Part shown: piece after piece, positions 10,638-30,523 of the stretch
Layout of the letters: the number at the start of each line of letters is the position of its first letter
How positions within the stretch are numbered: the first letter of the stretch is position 1
Assembly (NCBI GenBank): GCA_003134695.1
Contig: PLCB01000006.1
Coordinates: 161,039 to 225,038 of the forward strand
Length of the DNA stretch: 64,000 nt
Origin: Candidatus Zemynaea palustris
GTDB lineage: Bacteria; Vulcanimicrobiota; Vulcanimicrobiia; Vulcanimicrobiales; Vulcanimicrobiaceae
Reading direction: 5' to 3'
Notes under the pieces: model-generated
Told to the model about the DNA's origin: nothing
What the model saw: the letters and a program-made list of their open reading frames with translations, nothing else
Databases searched by the model: none
Made by a program: the position numbers and the translations under genes

Positions 10638-11105
10638 GTGAAGAAGCATGCTTTAGCTACGCATCCGCGACGCCCGCATTCCACAGCGCGACCGTCCTCC
10701 GCGCAATCCATACTGCGCGCGACGCCGCGGAAGCGTTCCGGGGTGCGCCTACGCGAGCAATGCGTGGGGTGCACCGCGGCCGGAACCCTCGCACTCATCC
10801 CCGCCGCGTGTCCGTCTTACGGAAAGCCCGTGCAGATGCGCCGGCGCCGTTACTGCGAGGCGTTCGCCTCGCACCATCGCCAGAACCGCCTATGGGCGAA
10901 GGACCATCCTGAGCCGCGCGATCCTCGCGCCTGGTTCCTGCGCGAGGTCGCGCCGAAGCTCCACGCCTTCTCGCTCGGTGAGATCGCGAAAGCGACTGGC
11001 CTGTCCCTCGCGGCCTGTTCGCGCTTCCGCGCCGGGACGAAGGCTCCGCATCCGCGTCATTGGACAGCCTTCGTCGCGCTCGTGGAAGGAAGCGAGACGT
11101 CCTGA
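10638..11105 (+). pseudogene. Solo-Cas1 C-terminal zinc-ribbon/HTH remnant (copy A)
   Basis: Residues about 70-155 of this frame match the C-terminal extension of the solo-Cas1 fragment at 29576: HHRQNRLWAKDH, RAWFLREVAPKL, IAKATGLSLAACSRFRAGT and PHPRHW. The zinc ribbon before it is decayed: CPSYGKPVQMRRRRYCEAF has lost one Cys of each pair. There is no Cas1 catalytic domain. The stretch is open but probably not a functional gene. Confidence 0.65.
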
Positions 11106-11110
11106 GCGCA

Positions 11111-11144
11111 GTGCCCGATCAACCCGAATGCATCGCGCATCGGC
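11111..11144. repeat. Dispersed 33-bp repeat R3, copy 1
   Basis: Contains GTGCCCGATCAACCCGAATG followed by CATCGCGCATCGG. Related copies are at 16250 and 20440. This one begins five bases after the stop of Cas1 remnant A. Confidence 0.75.
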
Positions 11145-11337
11145 TCTGCATCAGGTGACGCGGTGCGCCTCGCGGCCGCGCACATGTAGCGGCTTGCCGC
11201 GGGGCACCGGCGCCTTCCCGCAGCGTCGCGCACCGCCAAAGGGCGGCACGGGGATTACGTTCCGGCGCTAAAATGGAACTGTGGCTTCGCTCGAAGCGTT
11301 ACCAGACTCGACAACTTCTCTTGCAAGGAGAACCTTT

Positions 11338-11757
11338 ATGCTTCGTCGCTCCCTGACGATCTTCGCCTCAGCCCTGGCGCTGACGGCGATCGCGGCCCCG
11401 GCGCCCGCCGCCACTACCTATCAGACCGTGACACTAACGGTTCCCGTGACAATCGCCTCGATGCCGATCGGCACCACCGCCAATGTTTCCTGTTTCGCTG
11501 GGCAATTCACTGGGCAAGTTGTGACGTTGCCGAACTACTTCGCAATGACCATCGTCCCCGTCACAACGCAACCCGGAACCGGCTTCGTCAGCTATAGCGG
11601 GCCCCCAATCGTCGTCGTCCTCAAGCCACCCCCGGGGGCACAATCGGCCATGGTTACCGGTGTGCAGGTCCGGTGCCAAGTGAACTTATCGCCTAATACT
11701 ACGCCCATCAACCCGACGCGGTCGACGCGTGATACGTCCCCTGTTACACTTCAGTAA
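11338..11757 (+). CDS. Exported hypothetical protein
   Basis: AAGGAG seven bases before the ATG at 11338. 139 residues, signal peptide ending APAAA, then a beta-rich Val/Thr/Pro protein with two Cys. The 3-prime end overlaps the next gene by 29 bases. No family recognised. Confidence 0.6.
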   Translation: MLRRSLTIFASALALTAIAAPAPAATTYQTVTLTVPVTIASMPIGTTANVSCFAGQFTGQVVTLPNYFAMTIVPVTTQPGTGFVSYSGPPIVVVLKPPPGAQSAMVTGVQVRCQVNLSPNTTPINPTRSTRDTSPVTLQ

Positions 11758-11977
11758 GCGGGCGGCGCTGGCAGTGTTGCTAGCGCTGAGCGCGGCTCAA
11801 GTCGAGGCGCAAACAGCGAAGACGGCGTCGTTCACGATGTCACCGTTGATGATCGTCGGCGTCCCGCCGGCCAGCGCGTCGTTTAATATGACGCCTGCGC
11901 TCGCCATCGTCGGCGTGCCGCCCGCGACCGCCTCGTTCACGATGTCGCCGCTTGTCATCGTAGGGTCGTCTCGCTAA
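11729..11977 (+). CDS. Small exported repeat protein
   Basis: 82 residues from a GTG that lies inside the end of the previous gene. A signal peptide is followed by three near-identical units of about 16 residues: TASFTMSPLMIVGVPPAS, ASFNMTPALAIVGVPPAT and ASFTMSPLVIVG. The regular F-M-P-IVGVPP pattern suggests stacked beta-strands. Nothing similar elsewhere in the window. Confidence 0.5.
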   Translation: MIRPLLHFSKRAALAVLLALSAAQVEAQTAKTASFTMSPLMIVGVPPASASFNMTPALAIVGVPPATASFTMSPLVIVGSSR

Positions 11978-12052
11978 AGTAGGCACCGCAGCGATCGGCG
12001 TAACGAAACGGCGCTTATGTGGCCGCCGCACAGCGTCCAGATCACATTCCCC

Positions 12053-12139
12053 GCAGGAACGCGCGTCCCACATCCGCGCCATTGGAAGGCGTTCCTCGCG
12101 CTCGTTGATGGAGTAGTGCCTCAGAGCGGTCATGACTGA
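12053..12139 (+). pseudogene. Solo-Cas1 C-terminal tail remnant (copy B1)
   Basis: Frame reads AGTRVPHPRHWKAFLALVDG then a short tail to a TGA at 12137. It is the last third of the same HTH domain as copies A to F, directly before and partly overlapping the next copy. Confidence 0.7.
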
Positions 12140-12473
12140 TCTCAGTCAACGGCCCGCGAGGTGCTCGCGAAGCAAGCCCCGCGAGGGACCCGATCCGCGA
12201 GCGAGCGCGCAGGCGAACGCGCAACGCGGCGAAGCGAACGCCTCGCACCACCGCCGCAACCGGCAATGGGCGAAAGAGCATCCCGAGGAGCGTGATCGCG
12301 CCTGGTTCCTGCGCGAGGTCACGCCGAAGCTCGATGCGTTCTCGCTCAGCCAAATCGCGAAGGCGACTGGCCTGTCGCTCGCAGCCTGCTCGCGCTTCCG
12401 CGCTGGAACGCGGGTCCCACATCCGAGGCATTGGGTTGCCTTTATTGCGCTCGTCCAGGGAGACGCGTCTTAA
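12132..12473 (+). pseudogene. Solo-Cas1 HTH-domain remnant (copy B2)
   Basis: 113 residues, possible ATG at 12132. From about residue 25 it matches the C-terminal module: NAQRGEANASHHRRNRQWAK, RAWFLREVTPKL, IAKATGLSLAACSRFRAGTR, VPHPRHW. Zinc ribbon and Cas1 domain are missing. It could in principle be translated as a small DNA-binding protein, but there is no good ribosome site. Confidence 0.65.
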
Positions 12474-14702: not shown

Positions 14703-14789
14703 ACTTTAATAGGTCTCGTCAAGCGATGAAGCCACAAGTTCGCCTTCAAAACGAAGCCTGGCAATATTGAACATGCCCGTTTAATATAG

Positions 14790-15815
14790 ATGATACGCAA
14801 CGCACTGCTGACCATCATACTCCTCGCCGCTCCGGTTGTCGCCGCCGCGCAACCGCCGAATCCGATGGCGACGCCGACGCCGACTCCCGGGCCGAAGATC
14901 AACACCGATCTGAAGGTCGCTCCCGGAATACTCCTCGCGAGACCCAAGCCTGCAGCGTGCCCGGGGGCCAAGTCGACGGACATTCTTCTTTCGTCGTGCA
15001 AAGGCGCGCCGGGGACACACCTGACGCTGACGCTCGGAAACAACGTGACCCCGGCGAAGGTTCTGTTCAAGCAAAACGCCGGCAGCAAAATGACGAACTA
15101 TTCCGCAACGGTCGGGCGCAGCGCCGGAGCATATACGCTGACCGTACCGCCACCGCGTAACGTTCAGGTCGCGCGGGGAACCAAGCAGTGCGCCGCGCAC
15201 GTCGGCCTCTTCGGCGCGCTGACGTGCCCGGCGTTGATCAAGTCGGGCGACGTGCTACTCGTCTGGGACTGGCAGGCCGGAGCGGGACCCGCCGCGATCG
15301 GCGGGTTTCGGGTGTACCGTGTCACGGGCGGAACCAAACAGCTCGTCTACACGCGTACGGATAAGGACTCGATCACGCTGGTAGACCTTTCCGGGCCCGC
15401 GGCCGGATACGTCGGCGCGTGTTTCGCCGTGAGCGCGTACGCCGGCGCATACGAGTCCGCCCTCAGCGCCGCGCATTGCGTGACGAGGCAGGAGACCGTC
15501 GTTCTTGCATCACCGACGGTCAACGCCACGTCTCCGCCGGCACCGGCGCCGAAGCACGTCGTCATCCACGTGACCGGCGATTCCTTCCCCGCCAAGACGG
15601 TCGTCGCGGCCGGCGGCGACGTGACGTGGATCAATGACGACACGGACGAGCATTCCGTGTACGGTCCGGCCGGACAGTTCGTCGGCGACCTGTACGCGAG
15701 CGGCGGGAGCTTCACGTACACGTTCCGCGACATCGGCAAGAATTACACCGTCCCCTACCTGTGCCAGTACCACGCGGGCATGCACGGAACCATCGCCGTC
15801 GTCACGAACCACTGA
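14790..15815 (+). CDS. Exported SSC-domain / fibronectin-like / cupredoxin protein
   Basis: 341 residues. The first 110 residues, including the signal peptide MIRNALLTIILLAAPVVAAA, are closely similar to the start of the gene at 20248 (minus). The SSC domain breaks off after AYTLTVPP. Then come a fibronectin-III-like domain (VLLVWDWQAG, GFRVYRV, CFAVSAYAGAYES) and, from about residue 250, a plastocyanin-like domain with type-1 copper ligands: His in DEHSV and the C-x2-H-x2-M loop YLCQYHAGMHG. A blue-copper, periplasmic electron carrier or copper sink is likely. The truncated first domain suggests a recombinational fusion. Confidence 0.8.
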   Translation: MIRNALLTIILLAAPVVAAAQPPNPMATPTPTPGPKINTDLKVAPGILLARPKPAACPGAKSTDILLSSCKGAPGTHLTLTLGNNVTPAKVLFKQNAGSKMTNYSATVGRSAGAYTLTVPPPRNVQVARGTKQCAAHVGLFGALTCPALIKSGDVLLVWDWQAGAGPAAIGGFRVYRVTGGTKQLVYTRTDKDSITLVDLSGPAAGYVGACFAVSAYAGAYESALSAAHCVTRQETVVLASPTVNATSPPAPAPKHVVIHVTGDSFPAKTVVAAGGDVTWINDDTDEHSVYGPAGQFVGDLYASGGSFTYTFRDIGKNYTVPYLCQYHAGMHGTIAVVTNH

Positions 15816-16001: not shown

Positions 16002-16174
16002 GCTCGAACCATGTCACTTTCAAGCTGACCTGCCCCACCATCGTCAATGGCAAGGTGACCGTGCCGGGAAGCCTCACGTTCCCGTCTACTCTAGCTCCGA
16101 TAACTCCGGGCGTGACAGCTCCGTACGCGCGGCCGTCGTTTTTTGAACCGCCGAGGCCCGTTCCGACAAAGTAG
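16002..16174 (+). pseudogene. Duplicated 3-prime end of the exported protein gene at 931
   Basis: In frame this gives HVTFKLTCPTIVNGKVTVPG, SLTFPSTLAPITPGVTAPYA and a final RPSFFEPPRPVPTK before a TAG at 16172. It matches the last 54 codons of the gene at 931-1479 with few changes and the same stop context. There is no 5-prime part. Confidence 0.85.
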
Positions 16175-16249
16175 ATTCAATCCAACGCGCGAGGCCAGCC
16201 GAGCGCCGCGCCTCGCGCGTTTTGTCACCGGCGCTTTTGCCCTAACGCC

Positions 16250-17356: not shown

Positions 17357-17403
17357 CGAAGCGCCTAGTAGGTCGGTGGGCGCCGGCGGATGGCGAACTA
17401 AGG

Positions 17404-17616
17404 CCCCGCGCCTGGTTTCTACGCGACGTGACGCCGAAGCTCGACGCCTTCTCGCTCGGCGAGATCGCGAAGGCTACGGGCCTATCGCTCGCGGCCTGCT
17501 CGCGCTTCCGGGCCGGAATGCGCGTGCCGCATCCGCGCCATTGGGAGAGGTTCCTCGCGCTCGTCGAAGGGAGCGAGAAGTCGGCCGGAACGCCCGAAAA
17601 GCCTCTGATTCCTTAG
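17404..17616 (+). pseudogene. Solo-Cas1 HTH-domain remnant (copy C)
   Basis: Frame reads PRAWFLRDVTPKLDAF, EIAKATGLSLAACSRFRAGM, VPHPRHWERFLALVEGSEKS and a tail to TAG. It starts within the module with no upstream start or zinc ribbon. Confidence 0.7.
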
Positions 17617-17693: not shown

Positions 17694-18239
17694 ATGAACG
17701 TTTACCGAGTTCTTCGCCGCCTGCTCGTCGTCGCGGCGAGCATCTGTGCCTTCGTCTGGGTCAACCATAGCGTCGCCCAAGCGGCGATCACCATGAGTTG
17801 CAGCGCGCCAGCTGTCGGCGACGTCACCGCGCATGGAGCGACGATCAACCACGTACAGCTCCGGGATTTCACGGTGGAAAACCCGACGACGATCGGGTCG
17901 AGCAGCGGCGGCGCGGGCGCAGGCAAGGCCGTGTTGCAGCCGTTCACGATCACCAAGACCGTGGATACGGCCAGCCCTAGCTTCTTCAAGAACGCCGCCA
18001 ACTTGCACACGAACCTTGGAACCTGCACGATCGACTTCGATCCAGGCAGCCGGCCTAGGGATCAAGAGTACCTGACCTTTACGCTCAGCAACGTGGTGAT
18101 CTCAGGCTATAAGAGCGGTAGCACGACCGAGACGTTCACCTTGAACTCCACGAAGATCATCCAATCGAACCTATTCAAAGCCACGCCGACGCCGACGCCG
18201 ACGCCCGCGCCTACAGCCCCGGTTCTGAAACGGAAATAG
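17694..18239 (+). CDS. Hcp-family protein with Sec signal peptide
   Basis: AAGGAG before the ATG at 17694. 181 residues: signal peptide ending AQAA, then an Hcp-like beta-barrel: HVQLRDFTVENP, GAGKAVLQPFTITKTVDTAS, then EYLTFTLSNVVISGYKSGS and TETFTLNSTKI. These are the landmark segments of Hcp1 tube proteins. A Thr/Pro tail follows (ATPTPTPTPAPTAP). Hcp normally travels through the type VI tube without a signal peptide; export through Sec would be unusual. Compare the exported PAAR and spike-tip genes at 8783-9498. Confidence 0.75.
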   Translation: MNVYRVLRRLLVVAASICAFVWVNHSVAQAAITMSCSAPAVGDVTAHGATINHVQLRDFTVENPTTIGSSSGGAGAGKAVLQPFTITKTVDTASPSFFKNAANLHTNLGTCTIDFDPGSRPRDQEYLTFTLSNVVISGYKSGSTTETFTLNSTKIIQSNLFKATPTPTPTPAPTAPVLKRK

Positions 18240-18372: not shown

Positions 18373-18672
18373 GTGGCTGCCGAGCGTAGAACCTGCGAAG
18401 CTAGCGCACAGGCAAACGCGCAACGCGGCGAGGCCAACGCCTCGCACCATCGCCGCAACCGCCAATGGGCGAAGGAACATCCCGAACCGCGCGATCGCGC
18501 CTGGTTCCTGCGCGAGGTCACGCCGAAGCTCGACGCCTTCTCCCTCGGCGAGATCGCGAAAGCGACTGGCCTGTCCCTCGCAGCCTGCTCCCGCTTCCGC
18601 GCCGGAACGCGCGTGCCACATCCGCGTCATTGCCTCGCGTTCATCAGACTTGTCGAAGAGAAAGGCGTCTAA
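18373..18672 (+). pseudogene. Solo-Cas1 HTH-domain remnant (copy D)
   Basis: 99 residues; from about residue 10 it matches copy B2: NAQRGEANASHHRRNRQWAK, RAWFLREVTPKLDAF, IAKATGLSLAACSRFRAGTR, VPHPRHC. The usual Trp after PRH is Cys. Zinc ribbon and Cas1 domain are absent. Confidence 0.65.
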
Positions 18673-18884
18673 GGCCGACGCCCGACATCGCGTGGTGCGC
18701 GGCGAGCCTTCGCTTCCCCCAAGCTTATTGGGCGCCAGCGCGCCGGAATACAAGCGTGCGAACCAGAATTCCGTTGCCATGACTATCCCGGATCGGATGC
18801 GCCGACTAGAACAATTATGGGTGAGATAATCAAGTCGCCGAACACGCCGGCAGCGCAAGCCTAAAGACTAGGCCACTCCGACCG

Positions 18885-19080
18885 GTGTGCGTTTTGTCGC
18901 GCAAATGCCCGTCCCGCAAGACTTTACGGCGCGTCGCGGATTCCAGGCTCCAATCGCGACGCCCGATGCGCTTTGCAAAACGGTTCTGCAAACTAGGCCT
19001 CGTCGCGCAAAGGTCCGTGGCGTCAGGCTTTCCGGCGCACGGCCCGATGCATGGACGAGGCGGCTTGCATCTGGCTGACG
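18885..19080. repeat. Stem-loop repeat block (REP-like), copies 1-2
   Basis: Two imperfect direct units of about 110 bases. The shared core on the minus strand is AAAGCCTGACGCCACGG followed by a near-complement of its start, then a second core around GCTTTGCAAAACGG. The same elements occur at 20500-20660 and 25505-25690. Nothing else is recognisable in 18673-19246. Confidence 0.55.
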
Positions 19081-19246
19081 AGCACATGTGTTCTACGTTC
19101 CAATGAGCGTTTTCCGCGCCGGGCTCGTTAAGAAGCCCAAGGCCTCTAAGCTAAGCCGACATCCGCCACTTTTCGCCATCAGCCGCTGAAGAAGTGACCA
19201 ACAGGTGACCAGCAACTAGAGCTCTCTCCAACGAAGCCGCGCGCTA

Positions 19247-20248
19247 TTAGCTCGATACCTTTAGCGTCCATGTGCCGACCGTGGACGGCGTCATGCCATA
19301 GATGCGGATGAAGTAGGAGCCCGGCGGGAGCCCGGTCGTCCCTGTTCCGAGGCCGGCATACGATGACACGCCTGTTGCACCACCACCGGCACAGTTTCCA
19401 TCACCGCAAGCTACTGGGTGTCCAGCCGCCGACATGTAAACGTCAAGAAGGATTCCGCCACTCGACGAGATGTACACGCTAACGTACGGCGTCGCATAAT
19501 ATGAGGTCTTACAAGTCGCGTGTGAGGCCGGTACAACAAATTCCAGCCAGTCTGAGCTTCCGGCTGGGAACGTATTGCCGGTGATCGTTATGGACGCTCC
19601 GCAAGTCGCTGTAAAACCGGACATTGTAGGGGCGCCTGCGGTCTTACCGCAGTGGTCCGCAGTCAGTGGATTGGTCGTGCCACCGCAGGACATGACTTGC
19701 GGTGCGCTGGGTGGGCTGGTACCATACGACGTCGGTGCACAAATCACCGTAAACGTACCAAGGTTTTCGGTAACCGTCGGACCGTAAGGGCCGCCTTGAG
19801 GGTGAGATGTATAGTAGGAAACAACGAGGCTGAACGAAGGGCCCAGCCCTGGCTCCAACGGACAGAGTGGCGGCACGGTCAGCGTGTTGTATGCTCCGGC
19901 GCTGCGCCCAACCGTTGCGGGATCGTTCACTTTAAGATGGGCGGTGTTTTGCATGAATTGAACAGCCCACACCTCGATCCCGGTGTTTCCGGGCGTCGGC
20001 GTCAGCGTCAGTTGTGTCCCCGGCGCGCCGCTGCACGACGAAAGAAGAATGGCCATCGACTTGGCCCCCGGGCACGCTACCGGCTTTGGTGTTTTTCTGA
20101 GGAGTATTCCGGGAGCGACCTTCAGCTCGGTGTTGATCTTTGGCCCTGGAGTGGGCATCGGCGTCGCCATCGGATTCGGCGGTTCCGCGGCGGCGACAAC
20201 CGGAGCGGCGAGGAGTATGATGGTCAGCAGGGCTGCGTTGCGTATCAT
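19247..20248 (-). CDS. Exported SSC-domain protein with prepeptidase-like C-terminal domain
   Basis: 333 residues from the ATG at 20248. The first 110 residues are the close paralogue of the gene at 14790. Here the SSC domain is complete, running from CPGAKSMAILLSSCSGAPGT to LGTFTVICAPT. After a linker comes a second domain with CGASITITGNTFPAG and the end LPPGSYFIRIYGMTPSTVGT, then WTLKVSS, which resembles bacterial pre-peptidase C-terminal (PPC) beta domains. Several Cys pairs. Surface or periplasmic role, partner unknown. Confidence 0.7.
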   Translation of the reverse strand: MIRNAALLTIILLAAPVVAAAEPPNPMATPMPTPGPKINTELKVAPGILLRKTPKPVACPGAKSMAILLSSCSGAPGTQLTLTPTPGNTGIEVWAVQFMQNTAHLKVNDPATVGRSAGAYNTLTVPPLCPLEPGLGPSFSLVVSYYTSHPQGGPYGPTVTENLGTFTVICAPTSYGTSPPSAPQVMSCGGTTNPLTADHCGKTAGAPTMSGFTATCGASITITGNTFPAGSSDWLEFVVPASHATCKTSYYATPYVSVYISSSGGILLDVYMSAAGHPVACGDGNCAGGGATGVSSYAGLGTGTTGLPPGSYFIRIYGMTPSTVGTWTLKVSS

Positions 20249-20345
20249 CGATGTTAATCTCCATTCCCCAGTTGGTCGATCCTTTAGGCGACGGCTCACG
20301 GTGCGGGTGGCGATCGGCGCCGGGCGATCATGCGATTTCTCCACG

Positions 20346-20399: not shown

Positions 20400-20439
20400 C
20401 ACCCTTAGAAGCGAGGACCTGCAGCGAAAGTGCAGCGCC

Positions 20440-20890: not shown

Positions 20891-21280
20891 TCAGCGCTCC
20901 CGGGCACCGTTCTGAACCGAGAGCTCCCAGCGATACCCCTCCGGATCGTGAAACCACAGGCCCATATGCGGCGAGTCCGGCCCTGTGGGACCGATCTCGT
21001 CGCCCGGATCTTCCAGTTCTACGCCGTTTTTCTTCAACGTCTCGAGCGCTTCGCGCAGCGCGCGCATACTGTCGAGGTGAAACGACAAGTGGTCGATCGT
21101 GTCCGGATGTGGTGTGCCTTTGAAGAACGCGATGATCATCGCGTCGTTCGTCAGCGCGATGGCCTCATCGGACCGGAACATTTCCTGCAGCTCGAAGTTC
21201 TTGGTCCAAAACTCCGCGCTCTTCTCCGGGTCATTGACAGCAACGCTGAAATGCCAAACCGTGCCAAGTTGTATTTTCAT
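20891..21280 (-). CDS. VOC (glyoxalase/dioxygenase-fold) family protein
   Basis: 129 residues, complete. The start LGTVWHFSVAVNDPEKSAEF and the later TIDHLSFHLDS and DPEGYRWEL give the two beta-alpha-beta-beta-beta halves of a vicinal-oxygen-chelate protein, with His in the first half and Glu in WEL as likely metal ligands. Substrate unknown. Flanked by repeats and gene fragments on both sides. Confidence 0.85.
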   Translation of the reverse strand: MKIQLGTVWHFSVAVNDPEKSAEFWTKNFELQEMFRSDEAIALTNDAMIIAFFKGTPHPDTIDHLSFHLDSMRALREALETLKKNGVELEDPGDEIGPTGPDSPHMGLWFHDPEGYRWELSVQNGARER

Positions 21281-21336
21281 GTCCTTACCTCTTCGTAACG
21301 CGTCAAGTGCGCTTGTACCTAAATGCTAAGCGCCCA

Positions 21337-21376
21337 GCGAATCGTGCCGGCGGCGTGGCGCTGCGATCGGAGCGGT
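21337..21376. repeat. 40-bp dispersed repeat R2, copy 1
   Basis: GCGAATCGTGCCGGCGGCGT then GGCGCTGCG and an A/T-variable end; the copy at 22408-22447 differs at two positions. Confidence 0.85.
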
Positions 21377-21483
21377 TTAGCGCGGGGAGTTACGCTCCGG
21401 CAGGAGTCGCACTTCGAAAGCTCGCTCACCTTTTTCTTGAATCTGTCCACAGCATCTGCACCGGCCGCAGCGGGTAGGTTGAT

Positions 21484-21732
21484 TCACGCCCTCAGATTTC
21501 GTGTAAAGAACGGCGCAAGCTTGGTGACGACCAAATCCACCCGATAATCGTACAGGGCCATGTGCGTGGCGCCTTCGACGATGAATAGCTCCTTCGGTCC
21601 GTGCGCCTTCGCATACAGCTCCTGACTATGCCATAGCGATTCGGCCTCACTCCCGGCCACGACCAGGACTGGCTGCGTCAGGAACGTCGAAACCTGGTCG
21701 AAGTCACGGGCGATCGGAGCCGGCCATCCCTT
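21484..21732 (-). pseudogene. Alpha/beta-hydrolase C-terminal remnant
   Basis: The minus frame gives DFDQVSTFLTQPVLVVAGSE, AESLWHSQELYAKAHGPKEL, then FIVEGATHMALYDYR and a tail to TGA at 21484. PVLVVAGSE followed by EGATHMALYD is the acid and catalytic-His end of an alpha/beta hydrolase of the dienelactone/xylan-esterase kind. An in-frame stop closes the frame upstream; the nucleophile half is missing. Confidence 0.7.
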
Positions 21733-21740
21733 TCATCGCG

Positions 21741-22037
21741 TCACTTGATCTCTACGAGTATGACGTTTACGGCACTACCGGGGGCGCTCTCTGGAAGATG
21801 CTCGTGCGCGGGAGCCCAGATCACTTGGCCAGCCTTCATGTCGAACTCTTCGCTCTTCCCGTCCGGATAGGAGAACGTTCCCCGGGCGTCGCCCAGGGAG
21901 ATGACGACGGTTTCGGGGTGGCCATGCATGACAGACTTCTCACCGGGCGCGTAATTAACGCGGAGAACCCGGACCTTGTCGTTTTCAAACTCCACTTTAT
22001 AGTGCTTCGAATCTACTTTCGCGGGGTCTTGAGGCAT
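21741..22037 (-). CDS. Small cupin protein
   Basis: 98 residues. A single-domain cupin: VLRVNYAPGEKSVMHGHPET gives motif 1 with the His-x-His pair, and AGQVIWAPAHEHLPES gives motif 2. Probably metal binding; may act on a small substrate or bind a ligand. No clear operon partner. Confidence 0.8.
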   Translation of the reverse strand: MPQDPAKVDSKHYKVEFENDKVRVLRVNYAPGEKSVMHGHPETVVISLGDARGTFSYPDGKSEEFDMKAGQVIWAPAHEHLPESAPGSAVNVILVEIK

Positions 22038-22703
22038 GCGTGACTCCTAACTGCAAGCTCAGCTGAGGAAGGCTTTCCGCCTACGCTGGTATTCTTTGGG
22101 ACAGCGGGGGTTCGGCCTTCACGGCCGAGAAGCGCAATCTCCCGAACCGAAGCAGGCACGTTCACAAGATCCTCTCTTGGTGCATTTCTGGCGGGCACGA
22201 CCGCGGCCGTCGTCGCGGCGCCCACCTTGGTTGCCGCTGCCGGCACGATTCGCTTGGCGTTAAGGCTTAGCAGCTTAGATCGCTAAGAGGCCGCGCAGCC
22301 CCGATCTCGGCGCCCAGAGAGGGGGGGCCGTGGCGCAAGGCTTTCCGGCTCTAAGCGGCTCTGCTCACCGCCTCAACGATTCGAGGCGCTAAGCTGCAAA
22401 GTGAAAGGCGAATCGTGCCGGCGGCGTGGCGCTGCGAGCGGAGCGGCTTCCAGAGTTGCTCAGCTCGTTGCCGGGCCAATGTTCCAATTCGGGTCGCTGA
22501 GCTCTGCGAGAAGATTCCGTGCTTCTTTCAGAAGCCGCGGCAAAGAATGCGTGAAGGGCCGTGTCGGACGGATTGTGGGTTCATACGGTTCCTAGTGTCG
22601 GGGACAAATGACTAGGCGCCAATGAGTGTTTTCTGCGTTAGGCCTCGTCCGTTCAATAATGATCGAAGGAAGCCACCCTAGAGTCAGCCGGCGCGCCGGT
22701 GGA
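22038..22703. other. Gene-poor stretch with repeats
   Basis: Holds repeat R2 copy 2 at 22408-22447. On the minus strand, 22460 to about 22590 reads LPRLLKEARNLLAELSDPNW followed by NIGPATS and a stop, which could be the tail of a broken gene, but I cannot name it. No intact gene seen. Confidence 0.4.
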
Positions 22704-23792
22704 TCACTCTCGCAGTCGCGTGACCGCGAACGTCGTGGCATCTACTGAGAATTTCGCCACCGGAGCGGATCCGGTTTGCGGTATCAGCCAAATCCAGTAC
22801 GCCGTATCGTTCGGCCGGTTGAAGAGTACTTCGCAGTTGCAATTCGTCGCGGCCTTACCGCTCGTGCGCAGCGCGGCGGCGATCGCTCGAAGGCCGTGCG
22901 TATCGATCGCGACCGTCTTCGGCCAAACGTACTTCGCTTTCATGTAGTCCGGTCCGTTGTTTGTTTGGGGGATGTCGTTGAGAAAAACCTCGCGCGCATC
23001 GAGCATCGGCTTGTTCTGGGCGAGCAGACCCACCAGCGACTTCAAATGGCCTCGGTCGAGCAGGATGCTGCGACTCGACGGCGGCGCGAGACGCTCGGCC
23101 CGATCGGTTACCGCGCTCGTGGCTTGGCCGAGAATTTCAATGCGCCACAGCATATCTTCCGACGCCGCCAAACTTTCGGAAGGTGACGTGGCGGACATTT
23201 GCGCCTTGATCGATGCGGCGTCGTTCGCAAAGGTGTCTTTCAAGACGAGCACCGTTTCGCCGCCGATCTTCCATTGCTCGACTTCTCTTAGCGACGGCCG
23301 AGTCGCGGCCGGCAGCGTCGTCGTGTCCGGATCTACGGAAGACGGGTCGAGCAGGAAGAACCCGCCCTTGTATGCACCCGTGACGGACTGGAATTGCACG
23401 AACATTGTATTGGGGTGAGCGGACGGCGAATACATGATTTGCCGTATGCGCGTGCCCGGCGGTAAGCCGACGGGCATGACGACCGGAAACGTCGCGCTCA
23501 ATGTTATTCTTTGGACATCGGAAGCCATCGGGTACTTCAGCACGACCATCGAACGAACGGTCGCGGCCGCTTTCCCTCCGGAGAGCCATATGTGTACGCC
23601 GCCGTAGATTCTCGCCGCCGCCACCGCAGCGCCCAGCGAGGCGAGCACGATCAACGCGCTCAATGCGAACCGTTGCGTCCGATTCCGCTGCGTCGCCGCG
23701 CGCGACGCGCTGCGGACCGCGTCTATCGAAAGGTTGGGAACGGGGATCCGTTCTCTCGCGGCCTTGCCCGTTACGGAAAAATCATACGGCAT
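22704..23792 (-). CDS. Anti-sigma-factor-like single-pass membrane protein
   Basis: 362 residues, start overlapping the sigma gene by 11 bases. A short basic cytosolic N-terminus (1-45) is followed by one membrane helix (FALSALIVLASLGAAVAAA) and a 290-residue outer domain with VVMPVGLPPGTRIRQIMYSP and GETVLVLKDTF, similar to the sensor parts of DUF4367-type regulators. No zinc motif of the classical ZAS type is visible. It should hold the ECF sigma factor at the membrane and release it on an envelope signal. Confidence 0.65.
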   Translation of the reverse strand: MPYDFSVTGKAARERIPVPNLSIDAVRSASRAATQRNRTQRFALSALIVLASLGAAVAAARIYGGVHIWLSGGKAAATVRSMVVLKYPMASDVQRITLSATFPVVMPVGLPPGTRIRQIMYSPSAHPNTMFVQFQSVTGAYKGGFFLLDPSSVDPDTTTLPAATRPSLREVEQWKIGGETVLVLKDTFANDAASIKAQMSATSPSESLAASEDMLWRIEILGQATSAVTDRAERLAPPSSRSILLDRGHLKSLVGLLAQNKPMLDAREVFLNDIPQTNNGPDYMKAKYVWPKTVAIDTHGLRAIAAALRTSGKAATNCNCEVLFNRPNDTAYWIWLIPQTGSAPVAKFSVDATTFAVTRLRE

Positions 23793-24336
23793 GTTGCGGT
23801 GTCTCTCCAGTCATAGGATCGAACCGGTCTTCGTAGTCGCCGAGAATGTGGCGCAATTTGGCACGCGAGCGCGCCAGCCGTGTTCTGACGGTCGCGTGTC
23901 GCACGCCCAAGGTTGCGGCGATTTCTTCGGTCTTGAGGTCGTCGAAATAAAAGAGTACCGTGACTTCGCGGAATTCGGGCGAGAGTTCGGCCAGCGCGCG
24001 CCACACGTCGATGGCCGTCGAATCGTCGGCGGCCGACGGCGCAAGGCCGGCCACTCGGTCGCTCACGCGCTGCCGACGCCGGACCCGCGCGGTTTGGCGC
24101 ATGATGATGCGATAGAGCCAGGCATCGAACGCTTCGGGCGAGCGCAGGCTACCGATCTTCCGGTGTACGATGACGCACGCTTCTTGAGCGGCGTCCTGCG
24201 CAAGGTCGCGATCCCCCAGGATCGTCGCCGCCAGACGGAAGCAGCCCGGCCAAATGGCGGCGATCAGCTCTTCGACGGCCCACTCATTGCGGTTCAGCGC
24301 CGAGGAGACGAGTTCCGGCGGTGCCCAGCGCGTCAC
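23782..24336 (-). CDS. ECF-type RNA polymerase sigma factor
   Basis: GTG start at 24336 after GAGAGGAAG; an earlier TTG at 24384 is in frame but has no ribosome site. 184 residues. Region 2: CFRLAATILGDRDLAQDAAQ and AFDAWLYRIIMRQ; region 4: LSPEFREVTVLFYFDDLKTE and AATLGVRHATVRTRLARSR. The next gene is the membrane anti-sigma partner. The target promoter could be the repeated TGTAAG-CTTATAAG leader, which is a guess. Confidence 0.88.
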   Translation of the reverse strand: MTRWAPPELVSSALNRNEWAVEELIAAIWPGCFRLAATILGDRDLAQDAAQEACVIVHRKIGSLRSPEAFDAWLYRIIMRQTARVRRRQRVSDRVAGLAPSAADDSTAIDVWRALAELSPEFREVTVLFYFDDLKTEEIAATLGVRHATVRTRLARSRAKLRHILGDYEDRFDPMTGETPQHAV

Positions 24337-24545
24337 GGTCTTCCTCTCATATCGTCTACCCGTAAGAGGCGCGCGACCGTCCAAAATGTTCCCGGCACCC
24401 CGGCCGGGACTTAATCTGCAGGACCTCGCGCACGGGTATCTCTATCTTGGTCCCGCGGCCTTGATCCCTAAAGTAAACCTTCCCGAGGATACCGACGCAA
24501 CTTACGCACGCGAACTCGCTCGACGCCGAGCGCTCGTCCGCGGCA

Positions 24546-24579
24546 GCCTCGTTTCTGGCCGGCTAACATGCGCCTTGCA
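24546..24579. repeat. 34-bp dispersed repeat R4, copy 1
   Basis: GCCTCGTTTCTGGCCGGCTA then ACATGCGCCTTGCA; a copy with small changes lies at 34058-34093. No gene lies in 24337-24638. Confidence 0.7.
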
Positions 24580-24638
24580 CCCCTCGCTTGGCGCATCGCA
24601 GCGAAGCTCCAGACTCTAAGCGCCGGCGATCGCGGCTG

Positions 24639-25259
24639 CTAAGTTGAGAGCCACGACGTCAGACATCTCTTTGGCTCTGGCAAGGACGGCGCATGACCAT
24701 AGACAAACTCTGCGGGACCCCACTCGCCGCGCAGGTATGCTGTTGCCGACTGCACACCCCGCTTGGCATCCGTAGACTCATTTGCGCCGACCGCCAAAAC
24801 CTTCGAATAGATTGTTAGGCCTTGCTGAAGCAGCCGCGCAACAAGCCGCGAATTATCACCTGCATAATGGGCATCCTCTGCCGCAAGCAAATATTGATTC
24901 GCGGCATGGAGTAGCCAATCCGCGCGCGCCCCCGCCAACTTCTTCCGGCTCAGACACGTTTGCACTTGCTGACCGGCCTTTTCCCGCAGACGTGAAGCCT
25001 TCAGTAACTTGTCCTTGCCCGGAACGCTTTTACCGCCGCTCGACTCCAGGTCGTACGCTAGAAACTCGGTGTAGCTGAATACGTCCTCGCATTTGCAAAC
25101 TGCACTCGGTGCAGCATTAGCACCTTGATTGGATGAGAACCACGAGGTCGCAATGGGCGTCGGAGTCTGGGTGGGCGTCGGAGCCTGGGGACTTGGTGCT
25201 ACAGAAACCGCCGGTCCAATCGCAGCCAAAAGCATTAGCAAGAGCAACTGCGCGATCAT
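24639..25259 (-). CDS. Exported hypothetical protein
   Basis: 206 residues with signal peptide (MIAQLLLLMLLAAIGPAVSV) and a Pro/Thr linker (PQAPTPTQTPTPIAT). The rest is helical with two Cys pairs (CKCEDVF, QTCLSRKKL) and TPR-like helix pairs (WLLHAANQYLLAAEDAHYAG). Function unknown. Confidence 0.6.
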   Translation of the reverse strand: MIAQLLLLMLLAAIGPAVSVAPSPQAPTPTQTPTPIATSWFSSNQGANAAPSAVCKCEDVFSYTEFLAYDLESSGGKSVPGKDKLLKASRLREKAGQQVQTCLSRKKLAGARADWLLHAANQYLLAAEDAHYAGDNSRLVARLLQQGLTIYSKVLAVGANESTDAKRGVQSATAYLRGEWGPAEFVYGHAPSLPEPKRCLTSWLST

Positions 25260-25338
25260 TTTTACGAGCGATTCCCTGTCGTGCGTCGCCGTCCCGTTAG
25301 CAAATCGCCGGACAACGCGTCAAGCAGCTTAGCGCGTA

Positions 25339-25462
25339 GCGCCACGCAGCCCGGCGCAGGGGCCTCGTTTTCTGTGCGCTGATTCTGCTCACTCAGCGCC
25401 CGGATGGGGGGCCTCGTTTTGGGTGGGCTTAACTCCTATCCCCTTAGGCCGCGGCTCGGGAG
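25339..25462. repeat. Repeat block: GCGCCACGCAGCCC unit and secA-end unit
   Basis: 25339-25371 matches 34036-34066. 25405-25460 matches 34105-34155 over about 55 bases (GGCCTCGTTTTGGG, GGCTTAACTCCTATCCCCTT, AGGCCGCGGCTC). The second copy runs into the end of secA. Confidence 0.8.
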
Positions 25463-25504
25463 TAGAGGAAAGGCCCTGAAACCGGACTCGGAGCCGCGAG
25501 CAAG

Positions 25505-25690
25505 GGGCGTCGCGCAAAGGCCCGTGCCGTAAGGCTTTTCGGCGCATGGCCGCCTTAGACGCCTCGATCGCGGCGCCCGGCGCGCTTTGCAAAACGTACT
25601 GCAAATCCGGGCGCGGCGCGAAAAGCCCCGTGGCATAAGGCTTTGCGGCGCACGGCTCAATGCACGGTCGCGCCGCCTGCATCGAGGCGC
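25505..25690. repeat. Stem-loop repeat block (REP-like), copies 3-4
   Basis: Two units with cores GCGCAAAGGCCCGTGCCGTA / AGGCTTTTCGGCGCA and GCGAAAAGCCCCGTGGCATA / AGGCTTTGCGGCGCA, about 110 bases apart, with GCTTTGCAAAACGTACTGCA between them. The second core contains AAAGCC...GGCTTT arms able to pair. No intact gene in 25260-25778. Confidence 0.6.
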
Positions 25691-25782
25691 AAAAAGTCGG
25701 GGCGTGTTGACGGCGTCTCGCTTCCTTCGACGAGACCGAGGAACGCTGTGCTCCACCGAATCGCGCACCGGGCCCATCTCAT
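25657..25782 (-). pseudogene. Solo-Cas1 tail remnant (copy G)
   Basis: The minus frame reads AIRWSTAFLGLVEGSETPST then a short tail to TGA at 25657. RW-x-x-AFL-x-LVEGSE is the end of the same HTH module as in copies A and C. Weak on its own, supported by the seven other copies. Confidence 0.45.
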
Positions 25783-26987
25783 TTGATGAACTGTAGGAAT
25801 TGCGCGGCGAGTGCGGATAGAACGACGACGATCCACGGAGGCGTCTTCCATACCGCGAGCAGCAGGAAAGCGAGAAATGCGAGCGCCGCGTCGGCAGGTC
25901 CACGAATTGCACTCACCCATACAGGTTGATATAGCGCAGCCATCAGCAAGCCGACGACGGCAGCGTTCACGCCCTGCAGCGCTGCGATCAGCTTAGGATT
26001 GGCGATGAAATCATTCCAGAATGGAAGGATCGCTCCGATGAGCAGAAACGACGGCAGGTAGATCGCTACGAGCGCAAGGGCCGCTCCGCCCACGCCGCTC
26101 ACCGGACCATGCATCGCCGCGCCGACATAAGCGGCGAACGTGAAGAGCGGCCCCGGCACCGCTTGCGCCGCTCCATAGCCTGCGAGAAACGCATCTGAGC
26201 CGATCCAGCCCTGCGGCACGACGCGCGCTTGGAGCAACGGCAGCACGACGTGTCCGCCACCGAAGACGAGCGCGCCAGATTCATAGAACGCACCGAACAC
26301 GTTGAGCGGACCGTAGGACGCGAATCGTTGTGCGATCGGGAATCCGACGAGCAATCCAAGAAACGCGACGGCGCTAAGGATGGCGGAAACGCGGTTTCCA
26401 GCAGCAGGAATCGGCTGTGTCTTACTCTCCGGTGGCTCAATGAAGAAGCGTCCGTAAACTGCTCCGAGTATGATAATCGAGAGTTGCACGAAGCCGCTAA
26501 CCGGAAGCAAGAGAATTACCGCCGCAGCGACAAACGCGACCGTCCTGCGCGGAACGTCCGGACAGAGTGAACGATACATGTTGGAGACGGCGAGAGCCAC
26601 GACGGCGACCGCAGCGACGAGCAATCCATGAATCCAGGGCGCTTCGGCCACGCCGGGGATGCGTGCGATGCCTAACGCGAACGCAGTCAGTGCAATTGCC
26701 GAGGGAAGCGTGAACGCGATCCAGGCCAACGCGGCGCCTAACACACCGCCGCGAATCAAGCCGATGATGATACCGACTTGGCTGCTCGCGGGACCGGGAA
26801 GAAACTGACAGAGCGCGACGATCTGCGCGAACGTATCCTCATCGAGCCACTTGCGACGGCGCACGAACTCGGCGTTGAAGTAGCCGAGATGTGCGATCGG
26901 GCCACCGAACGAAGTTACGCCCAGGCGCAGGAATGATGCAAACACTTCCCCTGCACCGGAAAGGTTGCGCGGCCCGGAAGGTTCCAT
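25779..26987 (-). CDS. chrA: ChrA-type chromate transporter
   Basis: Start ATG at 26987 after GGGAG; 402 residues. Two homologous halves, each opening with the family signature: FLRLGVTSFGGPIAHLGYF and CQFLPGPASSQVGIIIG in the first, VFGGGHVVLPLLQARVV and YGAAQAVPGPLFTFAAYVG in the second. About ten to twelve membrane helices. Exports or imports chromate-like oxyanions; family members also occur with unknown substrates. Third gene after the cupredoxin and barrel genes on the same strand. Confidence 0.92.
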   Translation of the reverse strand: MEPSGPRNLSGAGEVFASFLRLGVTSFGGPIAHLGYFNAEFVRRRKWLDEDTFAQIVALCQFLPGPASSQVGIIIGLIRGGVLGAALAWIAFTLPSAIALTAFALGIARIPGVAEAPWIHGLLVAAVAVVALAVSNMYRSLCPDVPRRTVAFVAAAVILLLPVSGFVQLSIIILGAVYGRFFIEPPESKTQPIPAAGNRVSAILSAVAFLGLLVGFPIAQRFASYGPLNVFGAFYESGALVFGGGHVVLPLLQARVVPQGWIGSDAFLAGYGAAQAVPGPLFTFAAYVGAAMHGPVSGVGGAALALVAIYLPSFLLIGAILPFWNDFIANPKLIAALQGVNAAVVGLLMAALYQPVWVSAIRGPADAALAFLAFLLLAVWKTPPWIVVVLSALAAQFLQFIK

Positions 26988-27025
26988 GGCCGGCTCCCTT
27001 CGGCCATCTTGCTTACATTGCTCTA

Positions 27026-27805
27026 TTAAGGTTTTGAAACTGCGGGCTTCGGGGCTTCGGGCTTTTCTGCCGGACCCCACGTCCAGTAGAGACCGACGTA
27101 GCCGACAGCGTGCGATTCACCTGAGATCGTGTGCCCAACGTCGAAGAGCACGTTGAACGAATCCGTCGGCTTCAGGTAGCCACCGACCGTATAGAACGTC
27201 GCATGCTGCCCGCCGACCGCTGATGGGCCTTGCGTAAACATCTCGCCGCCGAGTGTGAGCGCGCGGCCGATATCGCGTTGCACGAGCCAGCCTGCGAAGC
27301 CGTAGTTCTGCGCGCCGGGCGCGGTGTTCACCGCATATCCGCCGCCTCCGTACGTGGTCCACGACCCGTAGCTCTTTTGAATCCACAGCGGGAACTTGTA
27401 CCATGTGCGGCCGTTCCCGAGACTTTCATTGGCGTTGCCCGTCGCCACTTCGGCCATCGGAAAGACGCCGATCTGCGGCCTCCCCGCGGTCTCTTGCACG
27501 AACCGGAATTTCACGCCGAGTTCAGTGTCCCCGAGTCCCGACGTCTTCGGTCCGCCGGCCGGCGAGTTCCACTGATAGGGGATGACGATATGAAGGTGCA
27601 CGTTCGGCGCAGGTCCGCAGTTGTATTCGATCGCCGGACCGACGCTGCTCGTCGTCGCTGACGCTTTGTCCCACGTCGAGAAGACATAGAACTCGCAGTG
27701 CTTGTAGTCGATGGGAGCGGGATCATCCGTGAGAAACGGAGGACCTGCCTTGGCGGCACTCATCGACAAGACCAGAAAGATTGCGACCAGCAGTGATTTT
27801 CTCAT
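27026..27805 (-). CDS. Outer-membrane beta-barrel transporter-like protein
   Basis: 259 residues, signal peptide MRKSLLVAIFLVLSMSAAKA, mature start GPPFLTDDPAPIDYKHCEFY, characteristic of the same barrel group as the gene at 6207. Strands rich in Gly, Tyr and Trp follow. 38 bases upstream of chrA. Possibly the outer-membrane gate for this set. Confidence 0.75.
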   Translation of the reverse strand: MRKSLLVAIFLVLSMSAAKAGPPFLTDDPAPIDYKHCEFYVFSTWDKASATTSSVGPAIEYNCGPAPNVHLHIVIPYQWNSPAGGPKTSGLGDTELGVKFRFVQETAGRPQIGVFPMAEVATGNANESLGNGRTWYKFPLWIQKSYGSWTTYGGGGYAVNTAPGAQNYGFAGWLVQRDIGRALTLGGEMFTQGPSAVGGQHATFYTVGGYLKPTDSFNVLFDVGHTISGESHAVGYVGLYWTWGPAEKPEAPKPAVSKP

Positions 27806-27885
27806 TGCGACGACTTTCTGTCGGCCATGGACGGCAACAAACGAGGGAGGGGCGGCGGTTGCCCGTCGCCCCGAGGGTCCGCGCG

Positions 27886-28368
27886 TCAGAGCACGATGAT
27901 CCGGCCCGACATGAAGCCCTCTTTGTCGGGACCGCCGTAGCCTGCACCCATCGCCCACATCTTAGCGCCCATGTCGCAGGGGTACTTGCAGTGCCAGCGA
28001 TAGACGCCCGGCTTGTTTGCGGTGAAGGTGAAGGTCGTTGAAACCGGCTGAACCTCCTGGCCTACTTGCTTCCCTGCCTTGATCGTCTGGTCCAAACCGA
28101 GTTCCGGGCAGGTGATCGAGTGCGGCGACTCATCGTAGTCGACTACGGTGACGGTGACGGGCTCGCCCGCTTTCGTGACGATGTCCGACGGGACGATCGC
28201 ATCGTGCGACTTCCCATCGGGCCCCATGATCTTCTCCTTGCCGCGGAAAACGTACATGGTGACCTTCTGTCCGGTCGCGGCCTCGCTCTCGGGGCCATTG
28301 AGGGCGATTGCGCCGAGCACCATCGCCGCGCCGGTGAGCGCCTGCGCCCTGGAAACCTTGACGTGCAT
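27886..28368 (-). CDS. Exported CuA-like cupredoxin
   Basis: 160 residues from the ATG at 28368 with a signal sequence. The cupredoxin core has VVDYDESPHSITCPELGLD and the C-terminal loop GVYRWHCKYPCDMGAKMWAM. The C-x3-C spacing matches CuA sites (NosZ, cytochrome oxidase II), but the His expected four residues after the second Cys is Ala, with Lys next. A CuA, type-1 or other metal site cannot be decided from sequence. First gene of the group with the barrel and chrA. Confidence 0.75.
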   Translation of the reverse strand: MHVKVSRAQALTGAAMVLGAIALNGPESEAATGQKVTMYVFRGKEKIMGPDGKSHDAIVPSDIVTKAGEPVTVTVVDYDESPHSITCPELGLDQTIKAGKQVGQEVQPVSTTFTFTANKPGVYRWHCKYPCDMGAKMWAMGAGYGGPDKEGFMSGRIIVL

Positions 28369-28608
28369 CTTTGCTCCTTTTGCGCGTTCGCCGCGCACGC
28401 ACAATGTGACTACACGACGAGAACGCGTGGCGAAAAGCCAAGAAGGACCTAAGAAGAAACTGAGGAGCTTGGCAAACGCGCGGGCGCGCCCGACAAAAGT
28501 CTGCCCTCACTCGAAGAAGCGCGAGCGAAGCCGGCGCCGGCGTTGCGGCACGGCGCCGCTGTTGTCGTGGGGCGTCGCCGATCCGCCCGAAGCTCGTGGC
28601 GCGGCGCT

Positions 28609-28862
28609 TTAAGACGCGACGCCTTCGACGAGCGCGAGGAACGCAGCCCAGTGACGCGGATGCGGGACGCGCGTGCCGGCGCGGAACCGCGAACAGGCCG
28701 CGAGGGAGAGGCCCGTCGCCTTGGCGATCTCGCCCAGCGGGAATGCGTCGAGCTTCGGCGTTACCTCGCGCAGGAACCAGGCATCATTGCGCGGCTCGGG
28801 ATGCTCTCTCGCCCATTGCCGGTTCCGGCGATGGTGCGAGGCGACGTCTTGCCTAAGCCAAC
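28609..28862 (-). pseudogene. Solo-Cas1 HTH-domain remnant (copy E)
   Basis: The minus frame reads VASHHRRNRQWAREHPEP, DAWFLREVTPKLDAFPL, IAKATGLSLAACSRFRAGTR and VPHPRHWAAFLALVEG to a TAA at 28609. A stop lies a few codons upstream and there is no start codon. Opposite strand to copies A-D. Confidence 0.7.
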
Positions 28863-28893
28863 GGTCTAATCATCGGATACAGAGCGCCATAAA

Positions 28894-29325
28894 TCACCAA
28901 TTCGAATATGCAAACGGTCCCTTTTTCCCCGAGGCCTTGAGCTTTTTCCGTCGCAAAACACGGTCTTGACACTTTTTCTGAAGCGGTCCGCTCATGGATG
29001 TCACCGGGATGTGATGACCGCGGTTCTCAAGTTCTGTCTTGACTTCTGCAATCGTTTTCGGCTTCTTAAAAAAGCCTTCCTCAATGAGTTCCGCGAGATA
29101 ATGCGCGGGTCCGCCTCTCGCTTTTCTCGGCTGCTTCGAAGGCCGTGATTTCGCGCCGCGCGGCTGGCCATTAGGCGTCGACGCCTTCTCGCGGCCGTCT
29201 GCTCCTGAAAGCAAGTTCTCTAATATCTTTTGAAAAGCAATGCGCTTGAGTTCGGGGTCCTTTACATCAGCGACAGCTCGTTCCGCTTCCTGGACAAGTG
29301 TCGGGTAATTTTTCGGCTCTTTCAT
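28894..29325 (-). CDS. Winged-helix-like protein of unknown function
   Basis: 143 residues. N-terminal helical part, a basic linker (KSRPSKQPRKARGG), then a domain with AHYLAELIEEGFFKKPKTIA, LENRGHHIPVTSMSGPLQKK and LRRKK, ending GKKGPFAYSNW. The helix order and the final YSNW suggest a small winged helix found in scattered bacteria and archaea; the name of the family is not known to me. It follows the wHTH gene at 29597 by 29 bases, so the two are likely one operon. Confidence 0.6.
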   Translation of the reverse strand: MKEPKNYPTLVQEAERAVADVKDPELKRIAFQKILENLLSGADGREKASTPNGQPRGAKSRPSKQPRKARGGPAHYLAELIEEGFFKKPKTIAEVKTELENRGHHIPVTSMSGPLQKKCQDRVLRRKKLKASGKKGPFAYSNW

Positions 29326-29354
29326 TGGGTGGCTCCCTTCCTCAATTAAGCAAA

Positions 29355-29597
29355 TTACGCAGCGAGAAGCTCTGGGAGCGACTCGACACGCTTGCGGCCC
29401 AAACTCGTGATGAATAGCGCCTTGCCGGACTTGTGAAGGAAGCCCTCGGCATCAAGTCGCTTCACTGCGTTTGAAATCGTTGGCTGCGCACGCTTCAGGA
29501 TGCTAACCAGCTCGGCTTGCGACGCTTCTTCGTCATGATACAAGACGAGCAGGATGGCGTCATCACTGTTTAAGCTTGTCTCTCGCACTCCTCGCAC
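29355..29597 (-). CDS. Small MarR-like winged-helix DNA-binding protein
   Basis: About 80 residues from a GTG at 29597 (another GTG three codons in). DDAILLVLYHDEEASQAELV, TISNAVKRLDAEGFLHKSGK and TSLGRKRV form one winged helix-turn-helix. The N-terminus overlaps the Cas1 fragment on the other strand by 22 bases, so the start may have been altered by that insertion. Probably represses its own two-gene operon. Confidence 0.6.
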   Translation of the reverse strand: MRGVRETSLNSDDAILLVLYHDEEASQAELVSILKRAQPTISNAVKRLDAEGFLHKSGKALFITSLGRKRVESLPELLAA

Positions 29598-30523
29598 AAG
29601 GGCTCGATCCGACGCTCGGCGTCCTTCATGCGGACCAGCGCAACCGCGATTCGTTCGCGCTCGATGCCATGGAGCCGATCCGCCCGGACGTGGATGCGTT
29701 CATCCTCGATCTGTTGGAAGATCGCGTGTTCACCTCGCGGGATTTCGCCGAGCTTCCGAACGGGGTTTGCCGCTTATGCAGCCCGGTGACCCACGACCTC
29801 GCACTGACGCTGCCGCATTGGCGAATGCTCATGCAGCCGATCGCCGCGCGCCTCGCACAGGCATTCCGCGAATCGCGCCTCGAACAGCGCGCTGCGCCTC
29901 GCATTCTTGGTGCAGACCCTGTGCATTCGCGTCGCATTCGCCCTGTTGCGAGGCATTCGCCGCTCGTTGCAACGCCTCGCAAGGCCTCGCAGCCCCGGCC
30001 GTATGCAAGCAAAGAATGGAGTGCACCGCGGCCTGAAGGCCTCTCACTCAATCCAATTGCGTGCGCATCGTGCGGCGAGCCAGTCCTCAAACGCAGGCGC
30101 CGGCACTGCGAGGAGTGCATGCCGGAAGTGAAGCGCGCTCATGGCATTCGTGCAATTTCCGCCGCTCGCAAAGCGCTCGCGGCGCAAAGTCTCGCAGGCA
30201 AGGACCCTCGCGCGAATCGCGAGGCCGGGCGCAAGCGCGGCGCGGCTAATGCCGAGCACCACAGGCGGAACCGCGAATGGGCACGCGACCACGACCAGAG
30301 CGCTGTGCGCGATCGCGCCTGGTTTCTGCGCGAGGTTACCCCAAGGCTCGACGTCTTCTCGCTCGTTGAAATCGCAAAAGCGACGGGGCTATCTCTCGCA
30401 GCCTGCTCTCGCTTCCGAGTCAGCTCGCGCGTTCCGCACCCCCGACACTGGCCAGCCTTCTGCGCACTTGTGAGCGTAGCGATTGAGGGACCGGAGTCGC
30501 GCAGCCTTACCTCGCCCCTATAA
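29576..30523 (+). pseudogene. cas1: Solo-Cas1 with zinc ribbon and HTH, N-terminally truncated (copy F)
   Basis: 315 residues from a TTG; no good ribosome site. Residues 1-95 are the C-terminal part of a Cas1 integrase: LALLAQGLDPTLGVLHADQR, SFALDAMEPIRPDVDAFILD and GVCRLCSPVTHDLALTLPHW. The catalytic His18 and Asp30 are kept, but the Glu-bearing N-terminal part is missing. After a variable linker comes a zinc ribbon, CASCGEPV at 163 and HCEEC at about 177, and then the HTH module RAWFLREVTPRLDVF, IAKATGLSLAACSRFR. Cas1 with this tail is a stand-alone type not tied to CRISPR arrays; no array or cas2 is here. Confidence 0.75.

Follow-up and report, generated by a model that had tools for sequence, protein, structure and literature searches.

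We analysed a 64,000-nucleotide stretch of DNA from Candidatus Zemynaea palustris (contig PLCB01000006.1, positions 161,039 to 225,038; hereafter the window), in which a short DNA-binding module recurs over 20 kb (10638–30523). With a probability of roughly 0.88, these 20 kb are part of an accumulation site for casposons, mobile elements driven by Cas1, at the 3' end of the essential host gene secA in a Candidatus Eremiobacterota genome. The recurring modules, here called tails, are remnants, from the C-terminal end, of Cas1 integrase genes that successive casposon insertions brought to the secA end.

Duplications of the secA end in the window

The secA gene lies on the reverse strand (34141–36816), is recognized by its frame and C-terminal motif, and shares synteny with its counterparts in relatives. 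The final 14 bp of the gene, GAGCCGCGGCCTAA (34141–34154), recur exactly at 25444–25457 and 20706–20719, on the secA strand and each time followed by a casposon-type end. The original prediction had proposed looking for target duplications around the remnants; the window has these three target copies. Because the duplicated 14 bp comprise the last codons and the stop of secA, insertion leaves SecA intact. Directly abutting the secA stop codon is a casposon terminal repeat (GGGGATAGGAGTTAAGC...AAAACGAGGCCCCCC; 34103–34140, reverse strand), found at the same position in about 20 relatives.

The target copies delimit two inserted regions. The one next to secA (E1, 25458–34140) encodes a chromate transporter, a cupredoxin and a DUF4062 protein and includes two tail copies; since its ends belong to two different classes, E1 is probably two decayed casposons joined together. 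The next region (E2, 20720–25443, 4.7 kb) carries an ECF sigma factor; its ends match at 13 of 14 bp, with weaker homology to 38 bp, and no cas1 or polB was found in it. Beyond the third target copy lies a probable further region (E3, 18850–20705), whose end GGGGCTATACGCTACGC resembles a casposon end of the related genome G100 and whose left boundary is placed from a subterminal repeat only. This 31-bp repeat occurs near the casposon end at 25512–25542 (forward strand), at 20598–20628 and 20492–20522 (reverse strand) and at 18899–18929 (forward strand), positions that suggest a further boundary near 18.85 kb.

Recurring tails of a solo Cas1

The original prediction listed eight copies of the module, with Cas1 sequence only in the last. 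Self-BLAST of the window groups seven of these places into one DNA repeat family with 70–86% DNA identity and E-values down to 1e-77, a similarity far above chance. The remaining place, at 25657 on the reverse strand, was rejected as a copy: its only similarity is a 36-bp stretch shared with the 12 codons that end the 10638 copy.

Module extents were set by self-BLAST together with tblastn, with a full-length relative as query. Six copies lie on the forward strand. The first is an open reading frame (ORF) of 155 amino acids (aa) from the ORF list (10638–11105; self-BLAST 10855–11090, module 10686–11099), which has an internal deletion and still includes linker and zinc-ribbon sequence. A tail end fragment (12047–12128 in self-BLAST) has a module of 22 codons only (12047–12112), and is followed by a 113-aa ORF (12132–12473; self-BLAST and module 12152–12473) modelled as a helical helix-turn-helix (HTH) domain. 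The shortest of the long copies (17374–17616; self-BLAST 17377–17582, module 17374–17582) precedes a 99-aa ORF, also from the ORF list (18373–18672; self-BLAST and module 18399–18670). On the reverse strand, a further copy (28609–28844 in all comparisons) has an open frame without a stop. The last forward-strand copy is a 5'-truncated cas1 remnant (29507–30523; self-BLAST 29582–30472, module 29600–30472) corresponding to residues 247–542 of a 547-aa relative. Its ORF, which starts at 29576, covers approximately the latter half of the Cas1 domain, then the zinc ribbon, then the HTH, and matches positions 206–267 of the Pfam Cas_Cas1 model (E 5e-14); as predicted, it alone retains Cas1 sequence. 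Judged by sequence, the module is the HTH-bearing C-terminus of a solo zinc-ribbon Cas1. Outside the window, the same genome has only two more module places, one on contig C6 and a weak one, seen at the protein level, on contig C43.

Full-length Cas1 proteins and their neighbours in relatives

In related Eremiobacterota, the tail forms the C-terminal end of full-length Cas1 proteins (frames of 479–681 aa) with an intact catalytic triad. Such proteins were found in G031 (547 aa), G020 (558 aa), G100 (578 aa), G036 (539 aa) and G117 (540 aa), with two more in G071 and several in G085. The Cas1 triad (E173, H256 and E271) and three zinc-ribbon cysteines are invariant in an alignment of 20 proteins. 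The best match in the PDB is the casposase of Methanosarcina mazei (6OPM), with an E-value of 3.7e-18 for a single query and 7e-42 for a profile of the full-length proteins; it scores only slightly ahead of a CRISPR Cas1. A second type of Cas1 without the HTH is also present, including one full-length gene on contig C41 of the window's own genome. A search of viral contigs for Cas1 together with PolB gave no match, and a plasmid search returned only distant CRISPR Cas1 proteins.

A family-B DNA polymerase (PolB) of 1000–1150 aa adjoins Cas1 in the relatives. It has the conserved exonuclease and polymerase motifs DTET, DFLSMYP, YG and DTDS, its polymerase motif region gives weak PDB matches to DNA polymerases (E 6e-4), and 8 of 10 members match PHROG 'DNA polymerase' profiles (best E 6e-13). 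Because a structure model from a single sequence was poor (mean predicted local distance difference test score, pLDDT, 37), the identity of PolB rests on motifs and profiles. Its C-terminal end is likewise an HTH. The conserved gene set beside Cas1 further includes an HTH protein encoded on the Cas1 arm. The opposite arm has, together with the polymerase, two small proteins, one of them HTH-like and the other, which is conserved, by eye similar to a single-strand-binding (SSB) protein; we infer such function names for the small element proteins without database support. Beside the polymerase and Cas1 of G031, frames at L045:1014–7127 resemble by eye a type I restriction-modification operon (HsdR, S and M).

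Bounded elements and their ends

Intact, recently inserted copies of these casposons exist in relatives. In G100 (contig C118), TTACGCGGCGGCTC occurs at 1214 and 15907 and encloses a 14,679-bp element whose ends match as a terminal inverted repeat over about 370 bp; the right-hand copy is the secA end, which the element abuts. In G071 (contig C20), a 14-bp target of the same kind occurs at 5605, 14273, 21857 and 38246, the last being secA, and two elements of 7.6 and 16.4 kb are well bounded, one with a terminal repeat of at least 149 bp. We do not claim the order of the array as a record of insertion age, as the ends of the middle element in G071 match better than the secA-proximal ones. In G012 (contig C6), two tandem elements of ~15 kb lie at another gene, share TGGGTTTCGCAG and have terminal repeats of 34 bp.

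The original prediction also proposed looking for an intact element elsewhere in the same genome, and contig C41 holds a bounded one: CGACGAAAAGCCGA at 201338 and 220154 flanks ~18.8 kb of DNA that has inverted ends and includes Cas1 and PolB, the latter in two frames. The target duplication is thus exactly 14 bp in G100, G071, C41 and the window; terminal inverted repeats are found in G100, G071 and G012, and over 13 of 14 bp in E2; and PolB lies within the bounded elements of G100, G071, G012 and C41. The 31-bp repeat, GCGCAAACGCCCGTCCTATAAGGGTTTCCGC, is present in 2–4 copies inside the casposon ends of G100 and G020 and is arranged as a mirror image at either end of the G100 element. The trace of a Cas1-driven mobile element that had been proposed for the window is therefore borne out by elements with Cas1, PolB, inverted ends and 14-bp duplications, both in relatives and in its own genome.

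Occupied and empty secA ends

Among 46 genomes with a readable secA end, a casposon-type end directly follows the secA stop codon in 20, and many relatives have a secA end without casposon-type sequence. Under a strict rule, such an end was scored in 17 of 21 genomes with tails compared with 3 of 25 without (Fisher p=3e-6), a p-value that is optimistic because the end pattern was picked after some of these sequences had been seen and related genomes are not independent. The count itself is conservative at G076, which was scored negative though it is one base off the rule. In G014 and G128 (loci L138 and L179), a casposon-type end follows the secA stop and no Cas1 tail was found in either genome; other casposon types may use the secA site there.

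A model for the accumulation site

We hypothesize that Cas1 acts as the casposase and binds element ends partly through its HTH tail. Insertion at secA would follow the staggered-cut reaction described for archaeal casposases, with PolB copying the element. New elements would insert beside old ones, the old would decay through deletion and recombination, and the cas1 3' end would repeatedly survive as a short ORF encoding the HTH. The many insertions originally invoked to explain the tails would thus hold as repeated insertions at secA; the tails do not correspond one to one to bounded insertions, and retention of the HTH, rather than insertions alone, may contribute to their survival.

Several observations weigh against a casposon site. 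The window holds remnants only, none of them of PolB, with no complete casposon (Cas1 and PolB within bounded ends), and has three target copies for seven tails. The PolB of the C41 element is split over two overlapping frames and may be broken or misread. Furthermore, the genomes are draft assemblies of uncultured bacteria, so that junctions rest on assembly.

An alternative is that the proteins belong to CRISPR adaptation and that the locus is a degraded one rather than a transposon; general Cas1 models (TIGR00287) do match them. We rejected an adaptation module, since the genome that contains the window yielded no Cas2 and the scanned loci no CRISPR repeat arrays, and the neighbouring PolB, the terminal inverted repeats and the 14-bp target duplications also speak against this origin, which we consider to have next to no chance of being correct. 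It is also highly improbable that the tails are independent small HTH regulators unrelated to Cas1, one of which was once captured by a cas1 gene. The tail alone is predicted to fold as an XRE/Cro-type HTH, and it is far commoner without Cas1 than with it; nevertheless, tail-only sequences as one clade are rejected (approximately unbiased test, AU p 0.0002), they fall among full-length cas1 genes in the tree, and several still have, ahead of the HTH, sequence of the linker, the zinc ribbon or Cas1. The case of regulators without Cas1 history, which the original prediction had named as its refutation, is accordingly dismissed.

Why the tails survive

In the same 91 genomes, the tail (102 aa) gave 116 matches, the Cas1 head (340 aa) 65 and PolB (1009 aa) 57. 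Per residue, tails are over-represented ~6-fold relative to Cas1 heads and ~20-fold relative to PolB, an excess that is approximate because matches, summed from per-genome counts, are pieces rather than genes and a conserved domain is easier to detect. Tail-only copies are mixed with full-length genes in the tree to the same degree as shuffled labels, and this scatter indicates that truncation occurred many times. Summed ratios of nonsynonymous to synonymous differences (pN/pS) for nearest pairs are 0.26 between tails, 0.28 between tails and full-length genes and 0.23 for the single pair of full-length genes; the resulting dN/dS of ~0.25 derives from pairwise counts of these pairs. Homology of tails with full genes mostly stops at the stop codon and tail frames are mostly open, while some copies have only 20–60 codons or contain stops. 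For the 113-aa ORF, the structure model has a pLDDT above 90 over the HTH and resembles XRE/Cro repressors, with weak E-values.

These data are compatible with tails kept as small DNA-binding proteins that would occupy casposon ends and damp further transposition, a role we advance tentatively, at somewhat less than even odds. Otherwise the tails would be recent debris: fast turnover of casposons at secA, with deletions removing the cas1 front, would leave each tail young and functionless. This account, which rivals only the retention step, has a substantial chance of being right, if still below one in two. It fits the repeated truncation, the very short or interrupted copies and a hotspot full of other fragments, and low dN/dS can be inherited from full-length parent genes, so that the tail data also agree with frequent recent truncation; the excess of tails, too, could stem from a deletion mechanism that spares 3' ends. 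Neutral decay should however leave heads and PolB pieces in proportion, contrary to the observed excess, and no PolB, HTH or SSB-like remnant was found in the window hotspot; nor would it lead one to expect mostly open frames and homology ending at the stop codon. Rather improbable is that the tails serve as recombination anchors: as direct repeats, these 3' ends of cas1 would flank cargo and allow homologous recombination to swap it between neighbouring casposons. In G020 and G100, two tails of the same orientation enclose a type IV restriction gene (L046:9996–10946 and L042:9529–10480), in a tail-gene-tail block 90% identical between the two, and all tails share one orientation in several arrays (L048, L051, L105 and L108). 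A pure recombination site would not, on the other hand, be expected to show the protein-level selection that a low pN/pS indicates, the 5' limits of the copies vary widely, and one copy in the window is inverted. Taking retention of the tails as proteins one step further, the casposase HTH would repeatedly become a stand-alone protein that binds casposon ends, with the 31-bp subterminal repeats as possible sites, and restrains casposition as a self-made immunity layer; we rate this more specific proposal as less likely than not.

Other features of the window

The cargo genes of the inserted regions (ECF sigma factor, chromate transporter and cupredoxin-like protein) lie at 22704–24384 and 25779–28404 on the reverse strand. 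Within the casposon region, a forward-strand gene (30705–33827) encodes a 1040-aa protein with an N-terminal DUF4062 domain, possibly a defence-type NTPase, with no PADLOC match. Between two tail copies is a 181-aa ORF for an Hcp-like protein of type VI secretion (17694–18239, forward strand). Self-BLAST also revealed an 85% identical pair resembling the N-terminal region of a tyrosine integrase (1305–1481 and 16003–16176), an inverted pair with 84% identity over 390 bp spanning the starts of secreted-protein genes (14781–15153 and 19867–20257) and, outside the hotspot, a direct repeat of ~450 bp with 63% identity (45577–46023 and 47522–47971).

Comparison with known systems

CRISPR adaptation is proposed to descend from casposons. 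Few of these are known from bacteria, and most work tracing their mobility has been done in archaea. The elements described here constitute a bacterial casposon family with near-perfect long ends. Several have inserted in tandem at a single conserved site of the chromosome, and related genomes show both occupied and empty secA sites. The surviving Cas1 tails also prompt the question, open to experiment, of whether Cas1-driven mobility regulates itself. In the literature searched, which was thin in subscription journals, no paper joins casposons with Eremiobacterota. The original prediction of an undescribed Cas1-based element thus needs narrowing: the kind is known, and it is the casposon lineage and its secA hotspot that appear undescribed.

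In family 3 bacterial casposons, such as AceAut-C1 of Candidatus Acetothermum, Cas1 is fused to C-terminal zinc-binding and HTH domains (Krupovic 2014, PMC4046053). Our elements share with that family a solo Cas1 of this build, a neighbouring PolB, terminal inverted repeats and target duplications (PMC4046053), and differ in their Eremiobacterota hosts, the hotspot at the secA 3' end, the tandem elements and the abundant stand-alone tails; the likeness seen between the proteins is the C-terminal arrangement of zinc ribbon and HTH. Archaeal casposons insert at the 3' ends of aEF-2 or tRNA genes (PMC4046053), and the casposase of Aciduliprofundum boonei makes 14–15 bp duplications (PMC6614799). 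Common ground is therefore a target at the 3' end of a conserved gene, which survives the insertion, and a duplication length as in A. boonei. In our case, the target is secA, and a single 14-bp sequence serves terminal repeats of several classes. The M. mazei casposon (6OPM; PMC6977970, PMC10359463) provides the closest solved relative of the Cas1 domain and has in common the tandem arrays, reported there at one target (PMC9939771); its host is archaeal, unlike ours, and we found no report of many stand-alone C-terminal tails in it.

If the tails are retained as proteins, an analogy may be drawn with transposons. Truncated transposases act as inhibitors in the case of Tn5 Inh and the P-element KP, and a DNA-binding part without its catalytic part could similarly compete for casposon ends. 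With the secA end in the place of a leader, repeats of 14 bp and elements added in series, the site as a whole resembles a CRISPR array built of transposons.

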